A stretch of 41,864 bases of DNA from positions 1 to 41,864 of the forward strand of contig JAKQNZ010000095.1 in NCBI GenBank assembly GCA_029565535.1, in the 5' to 3' direction. Source of the DNA: Candidatus Cloacimonadota bacterium (GTDB lineage Bacteria; Cloacimonadota; Cloacimonadia; Cloacimonadales; Cloacimonadaceae). Below are positions 32,957 to 41,789 of the stretch, piece after piece (the first letter of the stretch is position 1; each line of letters begins with the position of its first letter). The notes under the pieces are model-generated. The model was not told the DNA's origin. It did no database searches and saw nothing but the letters and a program-made list of their open reading frames with translations. Both the position numbers and the translations under genes were made by a program.

Positions 32957-33105
32957 AATGCAGTAATGCAGTTCCCTATCCCAGGAATGCCAGCGTCTCG
33001 CTGGCACGGTTTTACCAGCCTCAGGCTGGTTTTTATACCAGCGAGACTCTGGCAGACCTTTCCGGTGAGACACCGGAATTCCGGGTGCTGGCATTCTACT
33101 GCATT
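32957..33105. repeat. Nest of palindromes inside an outer inverted repeat (REP- or MITE-like)
   Basis: The outer arms are AATGCAGTA plus GAATGCCAGC on the left (32957-32965, 32985-32994) and the uninterrupted reverse complement on the right (33087-33105). Inside are hairpins GCCAGCG/CGCTGGC (32989-33005), ACCAGCC/GGCTGGT followed by TTTTAT (33014-33034), CCGGTG/CACCGG (33062-33076) and the palindrome CCGGAATTCCGG (33073-33084). GTCTCGCTGG (32995-33004) also pairs with CCAGCGAGAC (33038-33047). No coding frame is present. Confidence 0.75.
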
Positions 33106-33214
33106 ATCTGGGGTTTATGCTGATCGATAGAACTCAAGCTTAGATAGTAGGATGTTGCGTAGTGCGTAGGTCAGGCAAGCTTTTTTGGGAAGGAAAGTTT
33201 ATTGCCTGGCAATA

Positions 33215-33230
33215 CGATATAATTATATCG
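33215..33230. promoter_or_regulatory. Perfect palindrome CGATATAATTATATCG upstream of rex
   Basis: A self-complementary 16-mer containing TATAAT at 33218-33223, with no clear -35 element 16-18 bases before it. It may be an operator overlapping a promoter. Confidence 0.45.
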
Positions 33231-33251
33231 ATATAAAAAGTGTAGATATGT

Positions 33252-33321: not shown

Positions 33322-33966
33322 ATGGACGCTATCCCGATTATGACGCTAAAAAGACTGCCACAATATCTGGAAGCCATATACAAATTTAAACGGGCCGGCC
33401 TGAAAATGGTTTCGGCCACGAAAATTGCAGTATTTACTGACGTACATATGACCCAGGTTCGCAAGGACCTTGCATATACCGGAGTAGTGGGAACCCCCAA
33501 GGTGGGACATAAGATAGACGAATTGATCTCAGCGATCGAACAATGTTTGAACTGGAACGATGCCTCGTCCTGTTTTTTGGTTGGCGTAGGCCATCTGGGC
33601 AAGGCCTTGATGGGGTATTCAGAATTAAGCCGTAAAGGGCTAAGAATTATTGCTGCCTTCGATGTGAATCCAGAATTGGCCGGAACCGAACTGCATGAGA
33701 TACCAATATATAATGTAGATAAACTGAGCAACCTGCTTAATCGCCTGCATATTCATATCGGGATAATAACCACTCCTGCCGATGCGGCTCAGGAAGTAGC
33801 GGATCTGCTAGTGGCAAATGGTGTAATTGCGATCTGGAATTTTACTCCTGCCAAGCTCAATTTACCGGAAGAGGTGATTGTAGAAAACATAGATATGAGT
33901 TCATCCCTGGCTGTTCTCTCTCGCCGAGTGGCCGAAAAACTCTACCACCCCATTACCAGGAACTGA
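33322..33966 (+). CDS. rex: Redox-sensing transcriptional repressor Rex
   Basis: Dimeric DNA-binding protein that responds to the NADH/NAD+ ratio and represses fermentative and hydrogen-metabolism genes. The 214-residue protein has an N-terminal winged helix (about 6-80; LKRLPQYLEAIYKFKRAG, HMTQVRKDLAYTG) and a Rossmann domain with GVGHLG at 88-93 and an Asp (AAFDVNPEL) after strand 2. A domain-swapped C-terminal helix follows. It has its own AAGGAG site. The hydrogenase genes start 97 bases downstream, so Rex is the obvious candidate regulator of them, although no consensus Rex box is visible. Confidence 0.94.
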   Translation: MDAIPIMTLKRLPQYLEAIYKFKRAGLKMVSATKIAVFTDVHMTQVRKDLAYTGVVGTPKVGHKIDELISAIEQCLNWNDASSCFLVGVGHLGKALMGYSELSRKGLRIIAAFDVNPELAGTELHEIPIYNVDKLSNLLNRLHIHIGIITTPADAAQEVADLLVANGVIAIWNFTPAKLNLPEEVIVENIDMSSSLAVLSRRVAEKLYHPITRN

Positions 33967-34063
33967 TATAGAGCCTAGTTAGGAATCAATCCGGAATACA
34001 GCAAAAACCTCTTACAATACAAGTACGTCTTGAAAAACTTAAAAAAAATAGATAGGAGTTAGC

Positions 34064-34564
34064 ATGAGTGCGTCATACGCAGCAGCACACAGCTTCAACA
34101 AGGTTTTGGAGATACTGGATCGTTATGATCGTAGCGAAACCAAGATAATCCCCATCCTGCAGGCGGTTCAGGAAGAATACCGCTATCTTCCTCAGGAAGT
34201 GATGACCTTTATCGCCACCTCATTGGGTGTTTCACCAGCCCGATTATTTGGTGTGGCAACCTTTTACAGCCATTTTTCTCTGGAGCCGAAGGGAAAACAC
34301 ATCTTGAAAATGTGTGATGGCACAGCCTGCCACGTAAAGGGTTCTTTAGCGGTGATCGAAGCCATCCGTAAACGTTTGAACTTGACGGCCAAAAAGATCA
34401 CGACAGACGACATGATGTATACTTTTGAAACGGTGTCCTGCCTGGGGGCTTGTGGGTTGGCTCCTGTTCTGGTTGTGGATGACGAGGTCCATGGACAGGT
34501 AACGCCCGAACAAGCGCTGCAACTTATCGAAAAGATCGAAACTGAGGAGAAGGAAAATGCTTAA
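34064..34564 (+). CDS. hydC: [FeFe] hydrogenase subunit HydC / NuoE-like [2Fe-2S] protein
   Basis: 166 residues: an N-terminal helical bundle (about 10-70, IIPILQAVQEEYRYLP, FGVATFYSHF) and a thioredoxin-like [2Fe-2S] domain with ligands C84, C89, C126 and C130 (CDGTAC ... CLGAC). This is the NuoE/24-kDa type found as the gamma subunit of trimeric hydrogenases. The start has TAGGAG upstream. It overlaps the next gene by eight bases, so the two subunits are translated together. It acts in the cytoplasm as part of HydABC. Confidence 0.93.
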   Translation: MSASYAAAHSFNKVLEILDRYDRSETKIIPILQAVQEEYRYLPQEVMTFIATSLGVSPARLFGVATFYSHFSLEPKGKHILKMCDGTACHVKGSLAVIEAIRKRLNLTAKKITTDDMMYTFETVSCLGACGLAPVLVVDDEVHGQVTPEQALQLIEKIETEEKENA

Positions 34565-36449
34565 TCTGGAACTGGTCCGCGAATCCTACAATCAAGCCAG
34601 GTCGCTCTGTAAAAAGCGAATCGTGGTTTGCGCCGGCACAGGCTGCATTGCCAATGGCTCGCTTAAGGTTTTTGAAAGCCTGAAAAACTCGATCGCCCTG
34701 AGAGGTCTGGATATCACTGTATCCCTAAAATCCGAGGATCAAAATAATCTGAAAGAACACGATGTATATATGATTGGCAGTGGGTGTCAGGGATTTTGCC
34801 AGGTTGGTCCGCTGGTCACCATAGAACCAGCTGGAATAATGTATGGCCACGTAAAACCTGAAGACGCGGAAGAAATCGTGGAGAAATCAATCCTGAAGGA
34901 CGACCCAATAGAAAGGCTGCTTTACCACGATCCCGTAAGCGGGAAGGCCTATAAGGGAACTGCCGAGATCCCTTTCTATACACGCCAAAGCCGAACCGGA
35001 CTAAAGGACTGTGGTCACGTAGATCCGGAAAACATCAGCGAATACATAGCTCACGGGGGATACTTTGCAGCCCGTGATGCTTATCTGAATTACGACTCGG
35101 AACAGATATGCAAATTGTACCAGGAGAGCGGGCTCCGTGGAAGAGGTGGAGGCGGATTCTCTACTGGCTTGAAGTGGGAATTTGCCCGTCGGGAAATGAA
35201 TGATAAGAAATACGTGATTTGCAATGGTGACGAAGGCGATCCAGGTGCTTTCATGGACAGGTCGATATTGGAAGGCAATCCACACAGTGTAATCGAAGGG
35301 ATGATGATCGCCGCTGCCGCCATCGGAGCTGACGAGGGATATGTATATGTAAGGATGGAGTATCCTCTGGCCTGTAGCAGGATCAGAAAGGCCATCCAGA
35401 CAGCTGAAAGTTATGGCATACTAGGTGATAATGTGTTTGGAAGCGGTAAGAGCTTTCGGATAAACGTAATGGAAGGGGCTGGTGCGTTTGTTTGCGGAGA
35501 AGAAACGGCGCTGTTGGCATCCATCGAAGGTAAGCGCGGTATGCCCAACCCCAAGCCTCCTTTCCCTGCTCAAAAAGGTTTGTTTGGCAAACCAACCGTT
35601 ATAAATAACGTGGAGACCCTGGCCCTGGTGCCTGTGGTACTGCGTGATGGTGTGCAAAAATTTCGCAGCTTGGGAACAGATAAATCTCCAGGGACAAAGA
35701 CTTTTGCTCTTACTGGTCATGTTGCAAACACCGGGCTGATCGAAGTTCCTTTTGGCACTACAATCAGGGAAATCGTGTTTGAGATTGGCGGGGGAGTTTT
35801 AGACAAGGACGGCAAGATTAACAACGATTCTTTCAAAGCAGTGCAGATTGGCGGCCCCAGTGGTGGCTGCCTAACCAGCGAACATCTTGATTTTCCCCTG
35901 GACTTCGATTCATTGGGCCAGATTGGAGCCATGGTTGGCTCTGGAGGAATGGTGGTGATGAACGACAGTACTTGCATGGTGGAAACAGCGCGCTATTTCA
36001 TGACCTTTACCCAGCATGAATCATGTGGTAAATGCGTTCCCTGTCGCGAAGGAACCCGGCAAATGCTGGAAATGCTGGAGGATATAGTGGCAGGAGAAGG
36101 TACGGAAGAAACCCTGGATTTGCTTCAGGAAGCAGGTGAAGCAGTGAAGATAACATCTCTTTGCGGTCTGGGAAAATCCGCGCCCAACCCGGTACTATCT
36201 ACTTTGCGTTATTTCAGATCTGAATACGAAGCTCATGTGAATGCGAAGTATTGCCCCACCAAATCCTGTAAAGCGCTTACTCCAATCTCGATCGATCCAG
36301 AGCTCTGCAAAGGCTGTACCCTTTGCAAAAGAGTTTGTCCGGTTGGAGCCATAAGCGGAGAAGTAAAGAAAGCTCACAGCATAGACCCTTTGGTCTGCGT
36401 TAAATGCGGCGCTTGTGTAGCAACCTGCAAGTTCAAAGCCATCAGTTAA
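34557..36449 (+). CDS. hydB: [FeFe] hydrogenase subunit HydB / NuoF-like flavoprotein
   Basis: NAD(H)- and FMN-binding subunit. In order: an N-terminal thioredoxin-like [2Fe-2S] domain (C25, C30, C77, C81), the NuoF core with GRGGGGFSTGLKW near 195 (NADH/FMN site) and NGDEGDPGAFMDRS, a [4Fe-4S] site with CGKCVPC at 490-496, and a C-terminal double [4Fe-4S] ferredoxin (C584, C587, C590, C594 and a second set around 613-623). The 630 residues and the domain order fit HydB of electron-bifurcating hydrogenases, which couple NADH and reduced ferredoxin to H2. Bifurcation itself is inferred from the family. Confidence 0.95.
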   Translation: MLNLELVRESYNQARSLCKKRIVVCAGTGCIANGSLKVFESLKNSIALRGLDITVSLKSEDQNNLKEHDVYMIGSGCQGFCQVGPLVTIEPAGIMYGHVKPEDAEEIVEKSILKDDPIERLLYHDPVSGKAYKGTAEIPFYTRQSRTGLKDCGHVDPENISEYIAHGGYFAARDAYLNYDSEQICKLYQESGLRGRGGGGFSTGLKWEFARREMNDKKYVICNGDEGDPGAFMDRSILEGNPHSVIEGMMIAAAAIGADEGYVYVRMEYPLACSRIRKAIQTAESYGILGDNVFGSGKSFRINVMEGAGAFVCGEETALLASIEGKRGMPNPKPPFPAQKGLFGKPTVINNVETLALVPVVLRDGVQKFRSLGTDKSPGTKTFALTGHVANTGLIEVPFGTTIREIVFEIGGGVLDKDGKINNDSFKAVQIGGPSGGCLTSEHLDFPLDFDSLGQIGAMVGSGGMVVMNDSTCMVETARYFMTFTQHESCGKCVPCREGTRQMLEMLEDIVAGEGTEETLDLLQEAGEAVKITSLCGLGKSAPNPVLSTLRYFRSEYEAHVNAKYCPTKSCKALTPISIDPELCKGCTLCKRVCPVGAISGEVKKAHSIDPLVCVKCGACVATCKFKAIS

Positions 36450-36462
36450 TAGGGAGATTATC

Positions 36463-38463
36463 ATGGAAAAATATGTATATATAAACGACAGGCCTATCCT
36501 CTGGGAGGGCGAAACCAATATCCTTGCCCTGGCGCGTAAAGCCCATATCGAGATTCCTACTTTTTGCTACCATAGCGACCTCAGTATCTATGGCGCATGC
36601 CGGCTTTGCATGGTGGAACTGGAAGGTAGGGGGCTGGTAACCTCATGTTCTACAGAGCCTTTTGAGGGTATGAGGATCAAAACGCATACTGACCAGATAC
36701 TGAAGCTTCGGAAAACCATCGTGGAGATGCTGCTGGCCAATCATGACCAGGAATGCACGAAATGCAGTAGAGCTTCCGACTGCAAATTGCGCGACCTTTC
36801 AAACCGGCTAAGCATTGACAAGGTTAGATTTCGCCAAACCCGCGAACGCAAGCCGAAAGACCTGGGCAGCGAGTCATTGGTAAGAGATCCAAACAAATGC
36901 GTTCTCTGTGGGGATTGCGTAAGGTTCTGCTCAGAAATTCAAGGCATTGGTGCCATCGATTTTGCAGCGAGGGGGCAGAATGTAAATGTAGCTGCTGCAT
37001 ATGGAAAAAGCCTTTCTCAGGTGGATTGCGTGAATTGCGGTCAATGCGCCGCAGTTTGCCCTACAGGCGCGATTACTGTAAAAAGCCACATTCCTCAAGT
37101 TTGGGATGCCATTCACAGTGCAGACAAGTATGTAGTTGCCCAGATAGCTCCTGCAGTAAGGGTAGCTTTGGGCGAGATGTTCAACCTTCCCTCTTGTGAT
37201 CTGACTACTGGCAAGATGGTTGCCGCAATGCGCATACTGGGCTTTCAAAAAGTATTCGACACTGCTTTTTCGGCAGACCTGACTGTGGTGGAGGAAGCCA
37301 ACGAGTTTATCGCTCGTAAATCCCGGGGCGAAAAACTCCCCATTTTCACCTCTTGCTGTCCTGCTTGGGTAAAATATGCAGAGCAGAGCTACCCTCAGCT
37401 TCTGGAGAATCTTTCCAGTTGCCGGTCCCCGCAGCAGATGTTTGGCTCCATCGCCAAGGAAAGGCTTCCAAAGCAACTGAATGTGGAAAAGGAAAAGCTT
37501 TTCGTGGTCTCGATTATGCCTTGCACCGCAAAAAAATACGAATGTAAAAGACCCGAGTTCGTACATGATGGAATCGCCGACGTCGATGTGGTAATCACTA
37601 CTCAGGAACTGGGAAAAATGATTAAAGAAGCTGGTATCGACATTGCTTCCCTGGAGCCAGAATCAATGGATTTACCCATGGGCTTCGCAACTGGTGCGGG
37701 AGTAATCTTTGGAAATAGCGGTGGCGTTAGTGAAGCAGTTTTGCGCTATGCCGCAGATAAATTCCAGATTCCTGTTCCCGAGAACATCGTTTTGCAGGAA
37801 GTGCGTGGCACATCCGGTTTACGTGAAGCAAGCCTGGCAGACGGAAATCTGCGGATGGCAGTAGTGCATGGCTTGAAAAATGCCCAGGAACTATGTGATA
37901 AGATAATTAACGGCGAAGCGGAATATGACATAGTGGAAGTAATGGCCTGTCCTGGAGGTTGCACAGGTGGTGCAGGACAACCGATAGTGCAATCAGCCAA
38001 ACAACGCAAAGACAGAACCACCTCCATCTATCACGCAGATAGGGCCATGCCGATGCACCGGGCTCAGGATAATCCCTTTATCAATGAGCTATACAGCGCT
38101 TTGCTCGATAAACCGAACAGCCACAAAGCCCATGAATTGCTGCATACCGCATATAAACACCGTAAACGCATCGATGACGACGAACTGAGTCTATCCGGTG
38201 CGGGTTCCGAGGACAGATGTAAAGTAAGGGTTTGCGTTGGAACCTCTTGCTACCTGCGTGGGTCTCAGGATATTCTGGCCAAAACCCTGAAAATGGTCGA
38301 AGAAAACGCTTGGGGAAATCGCTTTGACATAGGTGCTACTTTCTGCAGTGAGAAATGCGACAAAGGCCCCACCATCTGCATTGGAGACAAGGTGATTCAT
38401 CACGCCAACCTAAAGGAAGTAAAAGAGATGATTACCAAACACGCCGAAGCGAGAGAAAAATGA
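36463..38463 (+). CDS. hydA: [FeFe] hydrogenase catalytic subunit HydA
   Basis: Cytoplasmic H2-producing or -consuming subunit. In order: plant-type [2Fe-2S] (C35, C46, C49, C62), His-Cys [4Fe-4S] site (H94, C98, C101, C107), a double [4Fe-4S] ferredoxin (CVLCGDCVRFC, CVNCGQCAAVC), and the H-cluster domain with L1 TSCCPAW at 296-302, L2 MPCTAKKYE at 352-360 and L3 MACPGGCTGGAGQP at 494-507. A C-terminal thioredoxin-like [2Fe-2S] domain follows (CVGTSC ... CSEKC). All catalytic cysteines, including the proton-transfer cysteine of L1 (C298), are present. The 666 residues fit the group A bifurcating type. No hydE/F/G maturases are in the window. Confidence 0.96.
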   Translation: MEKYVYINDRPILWEGETNILALARKAHIEIPTFCYHSDLSIYGACRLCMVELEGRGLVTSCSTEPFEGMRIKTHTDQILKLRKTIVEMLLANHDQECTKCSRASDCKLRDLSNRLSIDKVRFRQTRERKPKDLGSESLVRDPNKCVLCGDCVRFCSEIQGIGAIDFAARGQNVNVAAAYGKSLSQVDCVNCGQCAAVCPTGAITVKSHIPQVWDAIHSADKYVVAQIAPAVRVALGEMFNLPSCDLTTGKMVAAMRILGFQKVFDTAFSADLTVVEEANEFIARKSRGEKLPIFTSCCPAWVKYAEQSYPQLLENLSSCRSPQQMFGSIAKERLPKQLNVEKEKLFVVSIMPCTAKKYECKRPEFVHDGIADVDVVITTQELGKMIKEAGIDIASLEPESMDLPMGFATGAGVIFGNSGGVSEAVLRYAADKFQIPVPENIVLQEVRGTSGLREASLADGNLRMAVVHGLKNAQELCDKIINGEAEYDIVEVMACPGGCTGGAGQPIVQSAKQRKDRTTSIYHADRAMPMHRAQDNPFINELYSALLDKPNSHKAHELLHTAYKHRKRIDDDELSLSGAGSEDRCKVRVCVGTSCYLRGSQDILAKTLKMVEENAWGNRFDIGATFCSEKCDKGPTICIGDKVIHHANLKEVKEMITKHAEAREK

Positions 38464-38702
38464 CCACGATCCACATCTGCATGGGCAGTTCCTGCTTTGC
38501 CAGGGAGAACAGGGAAAACCTGAGAGTGATAGAGGACTATCTGAGAGCCAATGGGATGACAGATAGCGTTCATATCGAAGGTTCGCTATGCATGGGTGAA
38601 TGCTCACGCGGACCAAATATCACCATAAACGGAAATCCATATTATGAGGTTCATTCTGAGGATTTACCGTCTATCCTTGATAAAGAGCTGTTGCAAATAT
38701 GA
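38460..38702 (+). CDS. Small thioredoxin-like [2Fe-2S] ferredoxin between the two hydrogenase genes
   Basis: The start is ATG at 38460, overlapping the hydA stop by four bases (ATGA); a longer upstream frame only shadows hydA. The 80-residue protein is one thioredoxin-like [2Fe-2S] domain with C7, C12, C44 and C48 (CX4C, CX3C). The same spacing occurs in HydC, the HydB N-terminus and the HydA C-terminus, and the sequence around it (CMGSSCFARENRENL, LCMGECSRGPNITI) is most like the HydA tail. It overlaps the sensor gene by four bases. It probably carries electrons to or from the downstream hydrogenase-like protein. Confidence 0.9.
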   Translation: MTTIHICMGSSCFARENRENLRVIEDYLRANGMTDSVHIEGSLCMGECSRGPNITINGNPYYEVHSEDLPSILDKELLQI

Positions 38703-40390
38703 ATGACCAAAAACCGATCTACACCGAAAAAACTGAATGTCAGGATTGCTACAAATGTGTCAGGGGTTGCCCCGTGAAAGCCATTCGCGTTGTATCTGGT
38801 TCCGCTCAGGTGATTCCCGAAGCCTGCATCCTATGTGGCCATTGCACAGAAGTATGCCCTGTGGGAGCCAAGAAAATACGTAATGACCTCGGCGAAGCTA
38901 TAAGGCTGTTGAAAAGCAAGAAACAGGTATTTGTTTCTCTGGCACCTTCCTACAGAACAGAATTCAGCGGGATCGACAGCGCTAAGTTGATCGCGGCTAT
39001 CCTGGAGCTTGGCTTTTTCGGGGTGTCGGAAACAGCATTGGGGGCACAGGTGGTTTCGGCCGCCTGTGCCGACCTGCTTTACAGGGAAGCTGGTTCCATC
39101 CAGATTTCTTCTGCTTGCCCCAGTGTTATCCACCTGATCGAGCAATACTATCCGCATCTGGTAAAATACATTACTCCGGTTGTTTCGCCCCTGCAAGCTC
39201 ATAGCAAGCTACTGAAAGCTGAATATGGTGATGAGGTTGGAATAGTGTTCATTGGCCCTTGCGTAGCCAAAAAAAACGAAACCAAGGATATCTTCGATGT
39301 AGCTCTTACCTTTAGTGATCTACGCCGTTGGTTCAATCTAAAAAGTATCGATTGGAATGCGCTGCCTTCGGGGTATGGCTTTTTGCCGTTTTCTGCTGCT
39401 GAGGGAGGGCTGTATCCCATCGATGGAGGAATGATTGACGGAATCAAATGCTGTAATCCGCCCCAAAACACTCTCTTCATGAGTTTCTCTGGGGTTCAGG
39501 ATATCGTAGAGGCTCTGGAAGAACTTGATTCAAGGCATCTGGATCGTCCGGTTTTCATTGAAACTCTGGCTTGTCCGGGTGGCTGCGTGAATGGCCCCGG
39601 GGTTAGTAAACGTGGTTCAACTGCACAGAAACGATATAGGGTTCAAACAGAAACTCCACCTCCCGAGCAAAGAGATTTGCATGCAATTCCCAACATCAGT
39701 GCTACCTATTCCAGCCGCGAAATTGTACAGGAGAGGCATAGCAAATCCGAGATAGCTGAAGCCCTGCTGAAGATTGGCAAGAAACGGGGAGAGGATGAAC
39801 TGAACTGCGGGGGTTGCGGCTATGATAGCTGCAGGGACTTTGCCTGTGCGCTCATCGAAGCTAAGGCTGAGCCGGCAATGTGTGTATCCTATTTGCGCAA
39901 GCTTGCGCAGAATAAAGCAGCTGCTCTCATCAAGGCGATGCCTTCGGGAGTGGTAATCGTAGATCAACACCTGCAGATCGTAGAATCAAATGCCCCATTT
40001 ATCAGTATCATTGGCGGCGATGCGGCGATCGTTTCTGAAGCGGATCCTGATTTGGAAGGCGCATATCTGGAGCGTCTGATACCGTTTCATGGTCTTTTCG
40101 CCGACGCCATCCAGGATGGTACAGAAGTTCAGATTCAGGACATCCGCTACAATGGGAAAATTATTCGGCTTACCCTCTTCTCGATCCAGAAACACATCCT
40201 GCTGGGGGGTATCTTGCAGGATATCACGGAGCCGGTTATCCAGCGGGAACAGATTATCGAAAAAGCCCAGGAAGTTATGCGCAAAAACCTCACTACTGTC
40301 CAGCAGATAGCTTTTTTACTTGGTGAAAACGCTGCCGATAGCGAAGTGCTGCTTTCCTCAATCGTGCAGAGTTTTTCTAGCAAGGATTGA
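38699..40390 (+). CDS. Group-C-like (sensory) [FeFe] hydrogenase with Fe-S and PAS domains
   Basis: 563 residues. A double [4Fe-4S] ferredoxin (C14, C17, C20, C24; C43, C46, C49, C53) leads into an H-cluster domain with L1 ISSACPS (A139, C140), L2 GPCVAKK (C188) and L3 LACPGGC (C292, C296). A further four-cysteine Fe-S motif follows (CGGCGYDSC ... MC, about 365-390), then a PAS domain (about 400-515). The first of the two adjacent L1 cysteines, which relays protons in catalytic enzymes, is alanine, while cluster ligands remain. This matches HydS/HfsB-type proteins proposed as H2 sensors. Gene order with a PP2C phosphatase downstream also fits that class. Activity is an inference. Confidence 0.9.
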   Translation: MNDQKPIYTEKTECQDCYKCVRGCPVKAIRVVSGSAQVIPEACILCGHCTEVCPVGAKKIRNDLGEAIRLLKSKKQVFVSLAPSYRTEFSGIDSAKLIAAILELGFFGVSETALGAQVVSAACADLLYREAGSIQISSACPSVIHLIEQYYPHLVKYITPVVSPLQAHSKLLKAEYGDEVGIVFIGPCVAKKNETKDIFDVALTFSDLRRWFNLKSIDWNALPSGYGFLPFSAAEGGLYPIDGGMIDGIKCCNPPQNTLFMSFSGVQDIVEALEELDSRHLDRPVFIETLACPGGCVNGPGVSKRGSTAQKRYRVQTETPPPEQRDLHAIPNISATYSSREIVQERHSKSEIAEALLKIGKKRGEDELNCGGCGYDSCRDFACALIEAKAEPAMCVSYLRKLAQNKAAALIKAMPSGVVIVDQHLQIVESNAPFISIIGGDAAIVSEADPDLEGAYLERLIPFHGLFADAIQDGTEVQIQDIRYNGKIIRLTLFSIQKHILLGGILQDITEPVIQREQIIEKAQEVMRKNLTTVQQIAFLLGENAADSEVLLSSIVQSFSSKD

Positions 40391-40393
40391 TCA

Positions 40394-41569
40394 ATGGCGG
40401 ATTACTTTCTCGAAGCGGACTACTACCAAATCTGCAAAAATGGCTACCAGGCTTGTGGAGATAGCTTTTACAGCATCAAAAACCAGGATCGGCTCGTGAG
40501 TGTGCTTGCCGATGGTTTGGGGAGCGGAATTAAAGCAAGTGTATTGGCAACCCTTACTACCACCATGGCGGCTGGATTCATCTCTTCCCGTATGGATATC
40601 AAGAGGGCAGCCGAAGTGATTCTGGAAACACTGCCTGTTTGCTCTTCCCGTCATATTGGATACAGCACCTTTACGATCATAGATGCGGGTTTTGACGGTC
40701 GCTTGCGAATAATCGAGCACGATAACCCTCCTTACGCCTTTGTCAGAGATGGCCGGATAATGCCGGTGATAAAGCAGGAGATACCCATAAAGAGCTTTCG
40801 TAAAAGCCATTTGTATTATTCTGAGCTCGAATTGCAACCTGAGGATCGAGTTCTGTACTATTCTGACGGAGTTAGCCAAGCCGGGATGGGGCTTCCGCAT
40901 CTACCCCTGGGCTGGCAGGAAAAACGCGTGGAAGATTATATCCTTGGCCTTGTGCAAAAAAACTGCCGGATTTCAGCGGGGCAAATCAGCAAAGACATTG
41001 CGCAAAAAGCCTGTGAATATGATGGATACAAAGCAGCCGACGATATAACCTGTGCTGCGCTATACTTCCGTAATCCGCGCAGAACTATTGTTTTTACCGG
41101 ACCTCCCTATAAAAAAGAACATGATGCCGTTCTGGCCGGAATTGCCAGAGAGTTTAGCGGAAAAAAGGTGATCTGTGGTGGAACAACCGCGGCTATCCTC
41201 TCCAGGGAATTGAATACCAGCATCCAAGTGAATCTGAAGGAAATCAAGGGAAATCTTGAAATCCCTCCCACTGCAAACATGGATGGCTTCGACTTGGTTA
41301 CCGAGGGCACGATTACTCTTTCTCGCTGTCTTAGCGCTTTGGAAGAGGATGCCAATCTGGATGCCATGCCGGAAAGCGCGGTTCGTAAACTCATGAAAAC
41401 CTTGCTCGATAGCGATATCATTGAATTTGTTGTGGGAACCAAAATCAACGACGCCCATCAAGACCCAGCTCTGCCCAAGGATTTGGAAATCCGTAGAAAT
41501 CTGATGAAACAATACTGCAAGGTGCTGGAAAAAAAATACTTGAAGTCTACAAGGATCGTGTTTGTATGA
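40394..41569 (+). CDS. SpoIIE/PP2C-family serine phosphatase with unassigned C-terminal region
   Basis: Likely output of the sensory hydrogenase. Residues 1-225 are a SpoIIE-type PP2C domain with metal-binding aspartates in CGDSF (D24), LADGLGSG (D40), YYSDGV (about 157) and ADDITC (about 216). Residues about 228-391 form a second region I cannot assign, with IVFTGPPYKKEHD, VICGGTTAAILSREL, DLVTEGTITLSR and FVVGTKINDAHQDP. There is no transmembrane or PAS segment, so input should come from a partner. It starts three bases after the hydrogenase-like gene. The phosphoprotein target (for example an anti-anti-sigma factor) is not in the window. Confidence 0.88.
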   Translation: MADYFLEADYYQICKNGYQACGDSFYSIKNQDRLVSVLADGLGSGIKASVLATLTTTMAAGFISSRMDIKRAAEVILETLPVCSSRHIGYSTFTIIDAGFDGRLRIIEHDNPPYAFVRDGRIMPVIKQEIPIKSFRKSHLYYSELELQPEDRVLYYSDGVSQAGMGLPHLPLGWQEKRVEDYILGLVQKNCRISAGQISKDIAQKACEYDGYKAADDITCAALYFRNPRRTIVFTGPPYKKEHDAVLAGIAREFSGKKVICGGTTAAILSRELNTSIQVNLKEIKGNLEIPPTANMDGFDLVTEGTITLSRCLSALEEDANLDAMPESAVRKLMKTLLDSDIIEFVVGTKINDAHQDPALPKDLEIRRNLMKQYCKVLEKKYLKSTRIVFV

Positions 41570-41688
41570 TTCTTCTTGGTCTATATGCTTCTGCTAATCC
41601 GCTGGCCAAAAAACCATGAATTCTCTCCAAGACCTTTCTAAGTGAATAGATCTTGATCAGCAGGTGAATTTGTTTGGTGGCATACTGG

Positions 41689-41738
41689 CCGGTATCATAC
41701 CACATTCATACCGGATGATCATGTGGTATGATTGTGGT
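41689..41738. repeat. Iterated palindrome built on GTGGTATGAT
   Basis: ATCATACCACAT (41694-41705) and ATGTGGTATGAT (41721-41732) form a perfect 12-base inverted repeat. A competing pair, CCGGTAT (41689-41695) and ATACCGG (41709-41715), overlaps it. The GTGGTATGAT unit is repeated directly right after the right arm. It looks like an operator array or cruciform site, not a terminator, as no T-run follows. Confidence 0.6.
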
Positions 41739-41789
41739 ATGATATACTCAAAACAGAGTGAAACCTGGGGCCTGGGGTTAAATACGTAA

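Follow-up and report, generated by a model that had tools for sequence, protein, structure and literature searches.

Which genes form a working unit, and what controls them, is the question raised by a run of hydrogenase genes close to one end of a contig from a Candidatus Cloacimonadota bacterium (assembly GCA_029565535.1, contig JAKQNZ010000095.1). We analysed the entire contig of 41,864 bases (hereafter the window), and genome context is visible only inside its ends; the source genome (2.6 Mb in 234 contigs) is 97% complete. An initial annotation, made from the bases alone, had read rex, hydC, hydB, hydA, a small [2Fe-2S] gene (fdx), an H-cluster gene (hydS) and a phosphatase gene as a self-regulating unit with two inputs, NADH/NAD+ through Rex and H2 through a sensor. 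Our analysis indicates that this run is probably a self-controlled cassette of seven genes serving H2 metabolism, in which Rex, HydABC, HydS and the phosphatase act as proposed below. Its features are the following.

33212..33233, no strand: candidate operator ATACGATATAATTATATCGATA, with core palindrome CGATATAATTATATCG, 88 bases before rex and with 3 mismatches to TATCGATA-N6-TATCGATA.
33322..33966, + strand: rex, redox-sensing repressor of 214 amino acids with the variant wing TGVVGTPKVGH (NF003994, 255 bits, cut-off 130; Rex chains in the PDB, best E 1.2e-35).
34064..34564, + strand: hydC, NuoE-like [2Fe-2S] subunit of 166 amino acids (PF01257, E 3.1e-50).
34557..36449, + strand: hydB, FMN/NADH subunit with extra Fe-S domains, 630 amino acids (HydB chains 8a6t_B and 7p5h_B).
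36463..38463, + strand: hydA, catalytic [FeFe] hydrogenase with a C-terminal [2Fe-2S] domain, 666 amino acids (Thermotoga maritima HydA 7p5h_A; PF02906, 325.5 bits).
38460..38702, + strand: fdx, small thioredoxin-like [2Fe-2S] gene, 80 amino acids (PF01257, 36 bits, cut-off 24.8).
38699..40390, + strand: hydS, group C (M2f)-like putative sensory [FeFe] hydrogenase of 563 amino acids (PF02906, 144.6 bits; motifs; structure model).
40394..41569, + strand: SpoIIE-type PP2C phosphatase (residues 1-228) with a conserved unannotated C-terminal domain (228-391), 391 amino acids (PF07228, 51.3 bits, cut-off 25).

The open reading frame (ORF) coordinates bear out the described arrangement, with seven co-directional genes between 33322 and 41569 and, from hydC on, gaps of at most 13 bases or overlaps. 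The rex/hydC gap is 97 bases, hydC and hydB overlap by 8, hydB and hydA are 13 bases apart, hydA/fdx and fdx/hydS each overlap by 4, and 3 bases separate hydS from the phosphatase gene. Pfam and NCBIfam searches found the Fe_hyd_lg_C domain in both hydrogenases, HydA and HydS, and Pfam placed a Complex1_51K domain in HydB and a 2Fe-2S_thioredx domain in the run; domains, motifs and PDB matches together agree with the earlier description of a group C-like HydS, a PP2C phosphatase and a bifurcating-type HydABC in one run. Self-regulation was recovered in part: the block travels with its own rex in the host family and a palindromic site precedes rex, and the further steps are put conditionally below.

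The history of the cassette within its family comes from 24 genomes (G000-G023). HydS is found in 13 of them, partial or in pieces in G003 and G005, and is absent from 11. A rex gene of the cassette type occurs in 12 of the 13 HydS-bearing genomes and in none of the 11 others, and in all eleven further genomes that hold it, hydC comes next, the order seen in the window; in G005, the thirteenth HydS-bearing genome, the cassette contig is fragmented and hydC is the first gene called. Eight of the genomes lacking HydS have no Rex match (E<=1e-10), and G013, G016 and G017 hold only a second Rex type; three of these 11 genomes are less than 90% complete (G011 81%, G013 74%, G019 89%). The cassette thus seems to be inherited as one block in the host family. 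The second Rex type recurs across the family, with one member at G000:C151:9936-10547 (L191) that is 56% identical to the cassette Rex, has a diverged wing and has no TCGATA-type site upstream.

Beyond the family, we compared 80 named loci, the best 80 of 250 by similarity to the window HydS. ORFs were picked by length and similarity, and because several loci hold spurious frames and too-early starts, the small gene was re-searched by tblastn. A phosphatase gene lies directly downstream of hydS in 77/80 loci, the exceptions being one contig end and two loci without a phosphatase (L131 and L140). The small [2Fe-2S] gene lies just upstream of hydS in 73/80 (64 by ORFs and nine by tblastn; one locus is cut and six have none), which places it in the sensor module. 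Different catalytic partners accompany this module: 33 of the 80 loci have hydB within eight genes, and 24 are hfs-like, with hydA downstream of the phosphatase gene and no hydB nearby; in the four hfs-like loci viewed (L079, L107, L108 and L117), a second [2Fe-2S]-like protein of about 90 residues precedes that hydA. A rex gene occurs within eight genes in 25/80. Among 83 clustered loci, a HydF-like family identified by eye is near 14 and an aspartase-like one near 13. The triad fdx-hydS-phosphatase recurs in loci labelled Cloacimonadota, Spirochaetes, Lentisphaerae, Verrucomicrobia, Nitrospirae, Desulfobulbus and others. Given the constancy of this triad and its varying catalytic partner, the fixed part is fdx-hydS-phosphatase; the adjacency of the three genes exceeds chance, and HydABC and rex are frequent but exchangeable companions.

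The regulator at the head of the run is a Rex protein by both its N-terminal winged helix (PF06971) and its NAD-binding domain (PF02629), each above cut-off. At the wing position where solved Rex proteins show SYFGALGKKGYGY, NNFGGFGQQGYGY and SYFGEFGKRGVGY, the window Rex has AYTGVVGTPKVGH. No canonical TTGTGAA-N4-TTCACAA site was found within 300 bases upstream of the window rex, the best candidate having 6 mismatches. A different dyad stood out. Allowing <=3 mismatches, TATCGATA-N6-TATCGATA gave 58 sites in 32 of the 83 loci (1.36 Mb), against 1-6 in five Markov simulations, and reading the list by eye puts 49 of these sites upstream of rex or the triad. When 6-mer dyads were sought without a preset motif in 81 upstream regions, TCGATA-N6-TATCGA ranked first, with 6 loci, the best of 30 shuffles reaching 3. 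With <=2 mismatches and within 250 bases, the dyad precedes 13/20 rex-led runs, 2/43 led by fdx and 0/12 led by hydS (shuffles, 0-1 of 81); in some of the regions led by fdx or hydS, rex or an overlooked small gene lies farther upstream, and six of the 81 regions (five hydA-led and one hydB-led), near contig starts and mostly misplaced, were left unused.

The dyad also follows the type of Rex. Among 63 distinct Rex genes, a dyad with <=3 mismatches lies within 300 bases of 30/47 whose wing reads GxPxxG and of 1/16 others (0-3 of 55 in simulated upstream regions), the GxPxxG pattern having been defined after viewing the sequences, in place of narrower wing labels; the sole exception among the 16, L187, has the wing GQARCG, close to GxPxxG. 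In the host family it precedes 9/12 cassette-type Rex genes and 0/11 of the second type. Across 14 genomes, TMTCGAKA-N6-TMTCGAKA with <=1 mismatch matched at 22 sites, of which 16 are at hydS loci, and the reversed pattern at 2; as these genomes were chosen because nearly all had a clear hydS-locus site, the counts show where such sites lie and not how common they are. Elsewhere the dyad lies 152 bases before an aldehyde dehydrogenase-family gene resembling AdhE (L158) and 50 bases upstream of a pair of succinate dehydrogenase/fumarate reductase genes (L171); two copies in tandem precede a second rex with, behind it, a gene that by eye is ferredoxin-rich and hydrogenase-like (L159/L201). Two further sites, in the first codons of a formate-tetrahydrofolate ligase-like gene (L160) and at a place with no recognised redox gene nearby (L161), are probably chance.

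The site also shares features with the canonical Rex operator. The 23 sites with <=2 mismatches have nearly invariant T3, G5, A6 and A8 together with their mirror positions; the dyad core is 18 bp, as long as the canonical Rex site, and T1, G3 and A6 of TTGTGA are retained in TCGATA/TCGAGA. At L108, a promoter-like pair TTGACA-N17-TATAAA is, by eye, overlapped by a dyad array. Arrays of four TATCGATA-like boxes with a 14-bp period, which is not a multiple of the helical turn, are seen at L108:9044-9093 and L122:7599-7648. The palindromic site upstream of rex makes an NADH/NAD+ input plausible, and Rex control of the cassette through putative binding to the dyad is likewise plausible.

The catalytic part of the cassette closely resembles solved electron-bifurcating enzymes. 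HydA matches T. maritima HydA (7p5h_A) over residues 5-660, C-terminal [2Fe-2S] domain included (E 2.5e-168), and for HydB the matches span residues 3-628 with HydB 8a6t_B (E 9.2e-230) and residues 19-629 with T. maritima HydB 7p5h_B (E 2.7e-209). HydA, HydB and HydC carry the extra Fe-S domains of solved bifurcating enzymes (group A3), and the NCBIfam model for A6 hydrogenases scores 742 bits, under its cut-off of 765. These near-full-length matches thus indicate a bifurcating-type HydABC, for which bifurcating activity is predicted; NADH-only relatives of bifurcating HydABC have been described (PMC8924675). The window's genome holds three Fe_hyd_lg_C matches (HydA, HydS and a 582-residue protein on contig C221) and the maturase HydG (490.5 bits, cut-off 312.15). 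A protein of 435 residues encoded at L031:1447-2751 combines H-domain, ferredoxin and FeS domains and matches no PAS model; many relatives have similar matches, and no H-domain protein of this type was found in the window's genome. It is perhaps the group C1 enzyme already described for Cloacimonadota (PMC8542988).

The second hydrogenase has the anatomy of a sensor. The closest named relatives of HydS are from Candidatus Cloacimonadota, at up to 86% identity. In 50 aligned sequences, its H-cluster cysteines C140, C188, C292 and C296, aligned to the motifs of solved HydA chains, are invariant, as are the cysteines of its two [4Fe-4S] motifs (C14/17/20/24 and C43/46/49/53), except C46, which is nearly so. 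A139, G186 and L290 are nearly invariant and, in the register of the profile alignment to solved HydA chains, fall opposite the C/M/M corresponding to C299/M353/M497 of CpI, positions whose change marks sensory enzymes (PMC10055695, PMC8163306). The other marks of the M2f and M2e types given in the TmHydS and TamHydS papers are two N-terminal [4Fe-4S] motifs and Cx2Cx4Cx16C, with PAS separating M2f from M2e (PMC10055695, PMC8163306). Cx2Cx4Cx16C is exact in the window HydS at 370/373/378/395 and present across the 50 sequences, in all of which PF04060 was also found.

The PAS domain assigned to HydS by the initial annotation is a candidate one, suggested by its relatives and by the model more than by the window protein itself. 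PAS_8 is matched at E<=0.01 by 42 of the 50 aligned sequences, and in the AlphaFold2 model (mean pLDDT 87.3) residues 417-508 form two strands, helices and three strands, the PAS order of elements, followed by a long helix; the best match of the window HydS, to PAS_9, scores 17.1 bits (E 0.0068), below the Pfam cut-off of 27. Residues 1-344, the part covered by structure comparison, resemble the [FeFe] hydrogenase 8zqd_A (Z 39.1, rmsd 2.6, 336 residues aligned). By anatomy, HydS is a predicted group C (M2f)-like sensory [FeFe] hydrogenase, and this putative sensor likely senses H2, a function widely assumed for group C enzymes, which a review nevertheless calls putative since direct physiological evidence is wanting (PMC8924675). 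In its small partner, C7, C12, C44 and C48 are invariant across 23 aligned sequences (22 such genes and the C-terminus of the window HydA).

The phosphatase model over residues 1-228 has a PP2C fold (Z 23.9, rmsd 2.5, 211 residues aligned to SpoIIE 5ucg_D). In a profile alignment, D23, D40, D158 and D216/D217 align to the GD, SDG, SDG and DD motifs of SpoIIE chains, and all five aspartates are invariant in 49 sequences; the protein is thus a predicted SpoIIE-type PP2C phosphatase with its metal-ligand acidic residues kept. Residues 228-391 form a second domain, modelled mostly at pLDDT >90 and with low confidence in the loop 354-361, which coincides with a conserved AHQDP-type stretch. In the 33-sequence alignment of this domain (A4), the invariant positions include G10, P12, G36, T38, E78, G79, D115, G122 and N126, and mean column identity is 57%, against 52% for the whole phosphatase in 49 sequences, the two sets being different ones. 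Its Pfam matches are weak and scattered (FIST in 3/33, best E 0.04; FrhB_FdhB_N in 3/33, best E 0.0096), and a profile search of the PDB gave nothing below E 0.024; the fold searches, run with the whole phosphatase, were dominated by PP2C chains and their comparison is confined to that part.

No substrate of the phosphatase is recognisable among the cassette genes. The initial annotation had proposed searching the genome for STAS/anti-sigma partners conserved with this phosphatase, and that search returned one pair, a STAS protein and a response-regulator-HATPase, whose HATPase member does not track HydS in the 24 family genomes. The pair lies at L044:2584-3886 (G000:C5), between genes resembling EF-G and PrmC. 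We rejected it as a dedicated partner because the HATPase, present in 13/13 HydS-bearing family genomes, is also in 9/11 of those lacking HydS, and the HydS-bearing G024 and G039 gave no hit for it at E<=1e-20; the search in relatives covered the HATPase member of the pair. SpoIIE/RsbU-like partner switching is therefore no more than a possibility. The window's genome also holds two Hanks-type kinases and three further SpoIIE-domain proteins, and no STAS, kinase or anti-sigma family was among those common to >=4 of the 83 neighbourhoods by BLAST clustering, from which diverged ones would escape.

Taken together, these parts suggest the following mechanism. Rex would sense NADH/NAD+; at high NAD+ it would repress the promoter of rex and, through read-through, the downstream genes, with release as NADH rises, a step modelled on known Rex biology (PMC6391272). 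HydABC would interconvert H2 with NADH and reduced ferredoxin. HydS would be a slow [FeFe] hydrogenase-type sensor, its H-cluster equilibrating with H2, and would read H2 or the ferredoxin state; electrons would pass from the H-cluster through the [4Fe-4S] clusters to the Cx2Cx4Cx16C cluster, which HydS probably shares with its small thioredoxin-like [2Fe-2S] partner. The PAS/coiled-coil end of HydS may then relay this state to the PP2C phosphatase, tuning the dephosphorylation of some protein. In this scheme we infer co-transcription of rex and hydC, binding of Rex to the dyad, H2 sensing, the direction of the signal and the phosphatase as its output.

Several observations weigh against this scheme. 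The window's dyad is a weak copy, and the genome-wide search with <=3 mismatches gave 15 sites against 17 for the reversed-pattern control. Of the 47 Rex genes with a GxPxxG wing, 17 have no dyad at <=3 mismatches, and four (L118, L135, L180 and L231) carry a canonical Rex site at <=2 mismatches. The region before the window rex showed no sigma-70-like promoter, and the 97-base rex-hydC gap neither a terminator-like site nor a palindrome. To the PAS match below cut-off is added that the link between phosphatase and HydS is conserved adjacency only. Another regulator might then bind the dyad, with Rex using canonical sites and the dyad merely travelling with rex operons, and the canonical-like sites found beside it at L180 and L135 (1 mismatch) and L118 (2 mismatches) would suit this, as would dyads at HydS clusters without an adjacent rex (L109, L122, L124, L094 and L057), including the arrays 300-590 bases before fdx or hydS in the Hydrogenedentes loci L122 and L124, outside the 250-base counting range. 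We nevertheless find such a regulator rather unlikely: the dyad is much commoner before rex-led runs (13/20) than before those led by fdx or hydS (2/55), it shares the 18-bp length and half-site T1, G3 and A6 of the Rex site, and it precedes both the second rex of L159/L201 and the rex of G033 (L218), a genome without a full HydS match. BLAST clustering found no other regulator family recurring in >=4 neighbourhoods. AdhE-like and succinate dehydrogenase/fumarate reductase genes are known targets of Rex, and the sites at L158 and L171 precede genes of these kinds.

Another possibility is that rex and hydC are transcribed separately, with rex only regulating itself and the sensor module having its own promoter. 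The rex-hydC gap, 97 bases in the window and 67-113 in 6/7 named Cloacimonadota loci with rex, leaves room for this, and fdx begins the run in 43/81 upstream regions; on the other side, 15/18 named loci outside Cloacimonadota have -74 to 45 bases between rex and hydC or fdx (negative values depending on the chosen starts), the relative G010 (L055) has -4, and the window's own gap showed neither a promoter-like nor a terminator-like site, so that we hold separate transcription to be possible, if on the doubtful side. It is quite improbable, in our judgement, that HydS is instead a low-rate catalytic hydrogenase serving redox balance, with the small [2Fe-2S] protein as carrier and a phosphatase that does not read HydS. 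Its H-cluster ligands and ferredoxin clusters are intact, and the metabolic role of the Cloacimonadota group C1 enzymes is left open by their authors (PMC8542988); yet the proton-relay cysteine and both framing methionines are replaced, HydS has a PAS-like end, a phosphatase gene adjoins hydS in nearly all loci, and deletion of hfsB in Thermoanaerobacterium saccharolyticum alters fermentation and gene expression, which its authors read as regulatory (PMC5707799).

Two side observations concern the DNA around the cassette. The stretch from the phosphatase gene to the contig end holds, at 41680-41740, repeats of the CATACCACA/TGTGGTATG type in both inverted and direct orientation. Similar short frames (..WQTFPVRHRNS.CW.STALSG..) at 32966-33130 of the window and at L044:1-321, two intergenic places in one genome, suggest a dispersed intergenic repeat.

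The background of the initial annotation, that sensory hydrogenases occur with phosphatases or beside bifurcating hydrogenases, is already in print. The phosphatase of T. maritima is presumably TM1423. As here, the TM1420-TM1426 region of that organism has a PAS-bearing dimeric D(M2f) sensory hydrogenase, TmHydS, beside a trimeric bifurcating HydABC (PMC3561251, PMC10055695); by locus numbers its sensor is upstream of HydABC, whereas in the window hydS follows hydA and rex leads the run. The hfsABCD operon of T. saccharolyticum/thermosaccharolyticum likewise pairs a PAS [FeFe] hydrogenase (HfsB) with a serine phosphatase-like protein (HfsC), but its catalytic partner is HfsD and not HydABC, and rex is not among its four genes (PMC11837493, PMC5707799). 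In the HydS cluster of Ruminococcus albus, a PAS-bearing group C sensor is found with a putative Ser/Thr phosphatase; unlike the run in the window, that cluster is associated with a hydrogenase of the ferredoxin-only kind and with an alcohol/aldehyde dehydrogenase (PMC6776011). In Hydrogenedentota, BfuT (group C3) is a PAS-bearing group C enzyme beside the A3 bifurcating hydrogenase BfuABC; the main text of that report names no phosphatase, SpoIIE or Rex (PMC11406978), and the Hydrogenedentes loci L109, L122 and L124 carry a phosphatase. For Rex, the canonical regulon of Caldicellulosiruptor bescii offers a parallel in Rex autoregulation and control of [FeFe] hydrogenase genes (PMC6391272). 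The TTGTGAA-N4-TTCACAA site of such regulons and the wing sequence are both different in the window.

Given these published cases from Thermotoga, hfs operons, R. albus, Hydrogenedentota and Cloacimonadota, the enzyme, sensor and phosphatase are of known kind, and the rex-led block with its unusual dyad makes the cassette a variant of known systems. Neither a rex-led block of this sort nor a TCGATA dyad with Rex was found in print, which is weak evidence of absence since the subscription literature lay mostly outside the search. More tentatively, and as a possibility we take seriously, a multi-phylum Rex subfamily may have shifted from TTGTGA to TCGATA/TCGAGA half-sites in the same 18-bp dyad, often in arrays of 14-bp period, and may mainly serve [FeFe] hydrogenase operons; in Cloacimonadota it would form one inherited unit with HydABC and a HydS-phosphatase module, the C-terminal domain of the phosphatase being an undescribed signal-receiving domain. 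A compact cassette of enzyme, sensor, phosphatase and redox repressor, present or absent together, offers a closed test system, in which the dyad is a concrete means to predict genes under this type of Rex and the conserved C-terminal domain of the phosphatase a concrete place to seek its contact with HydS.

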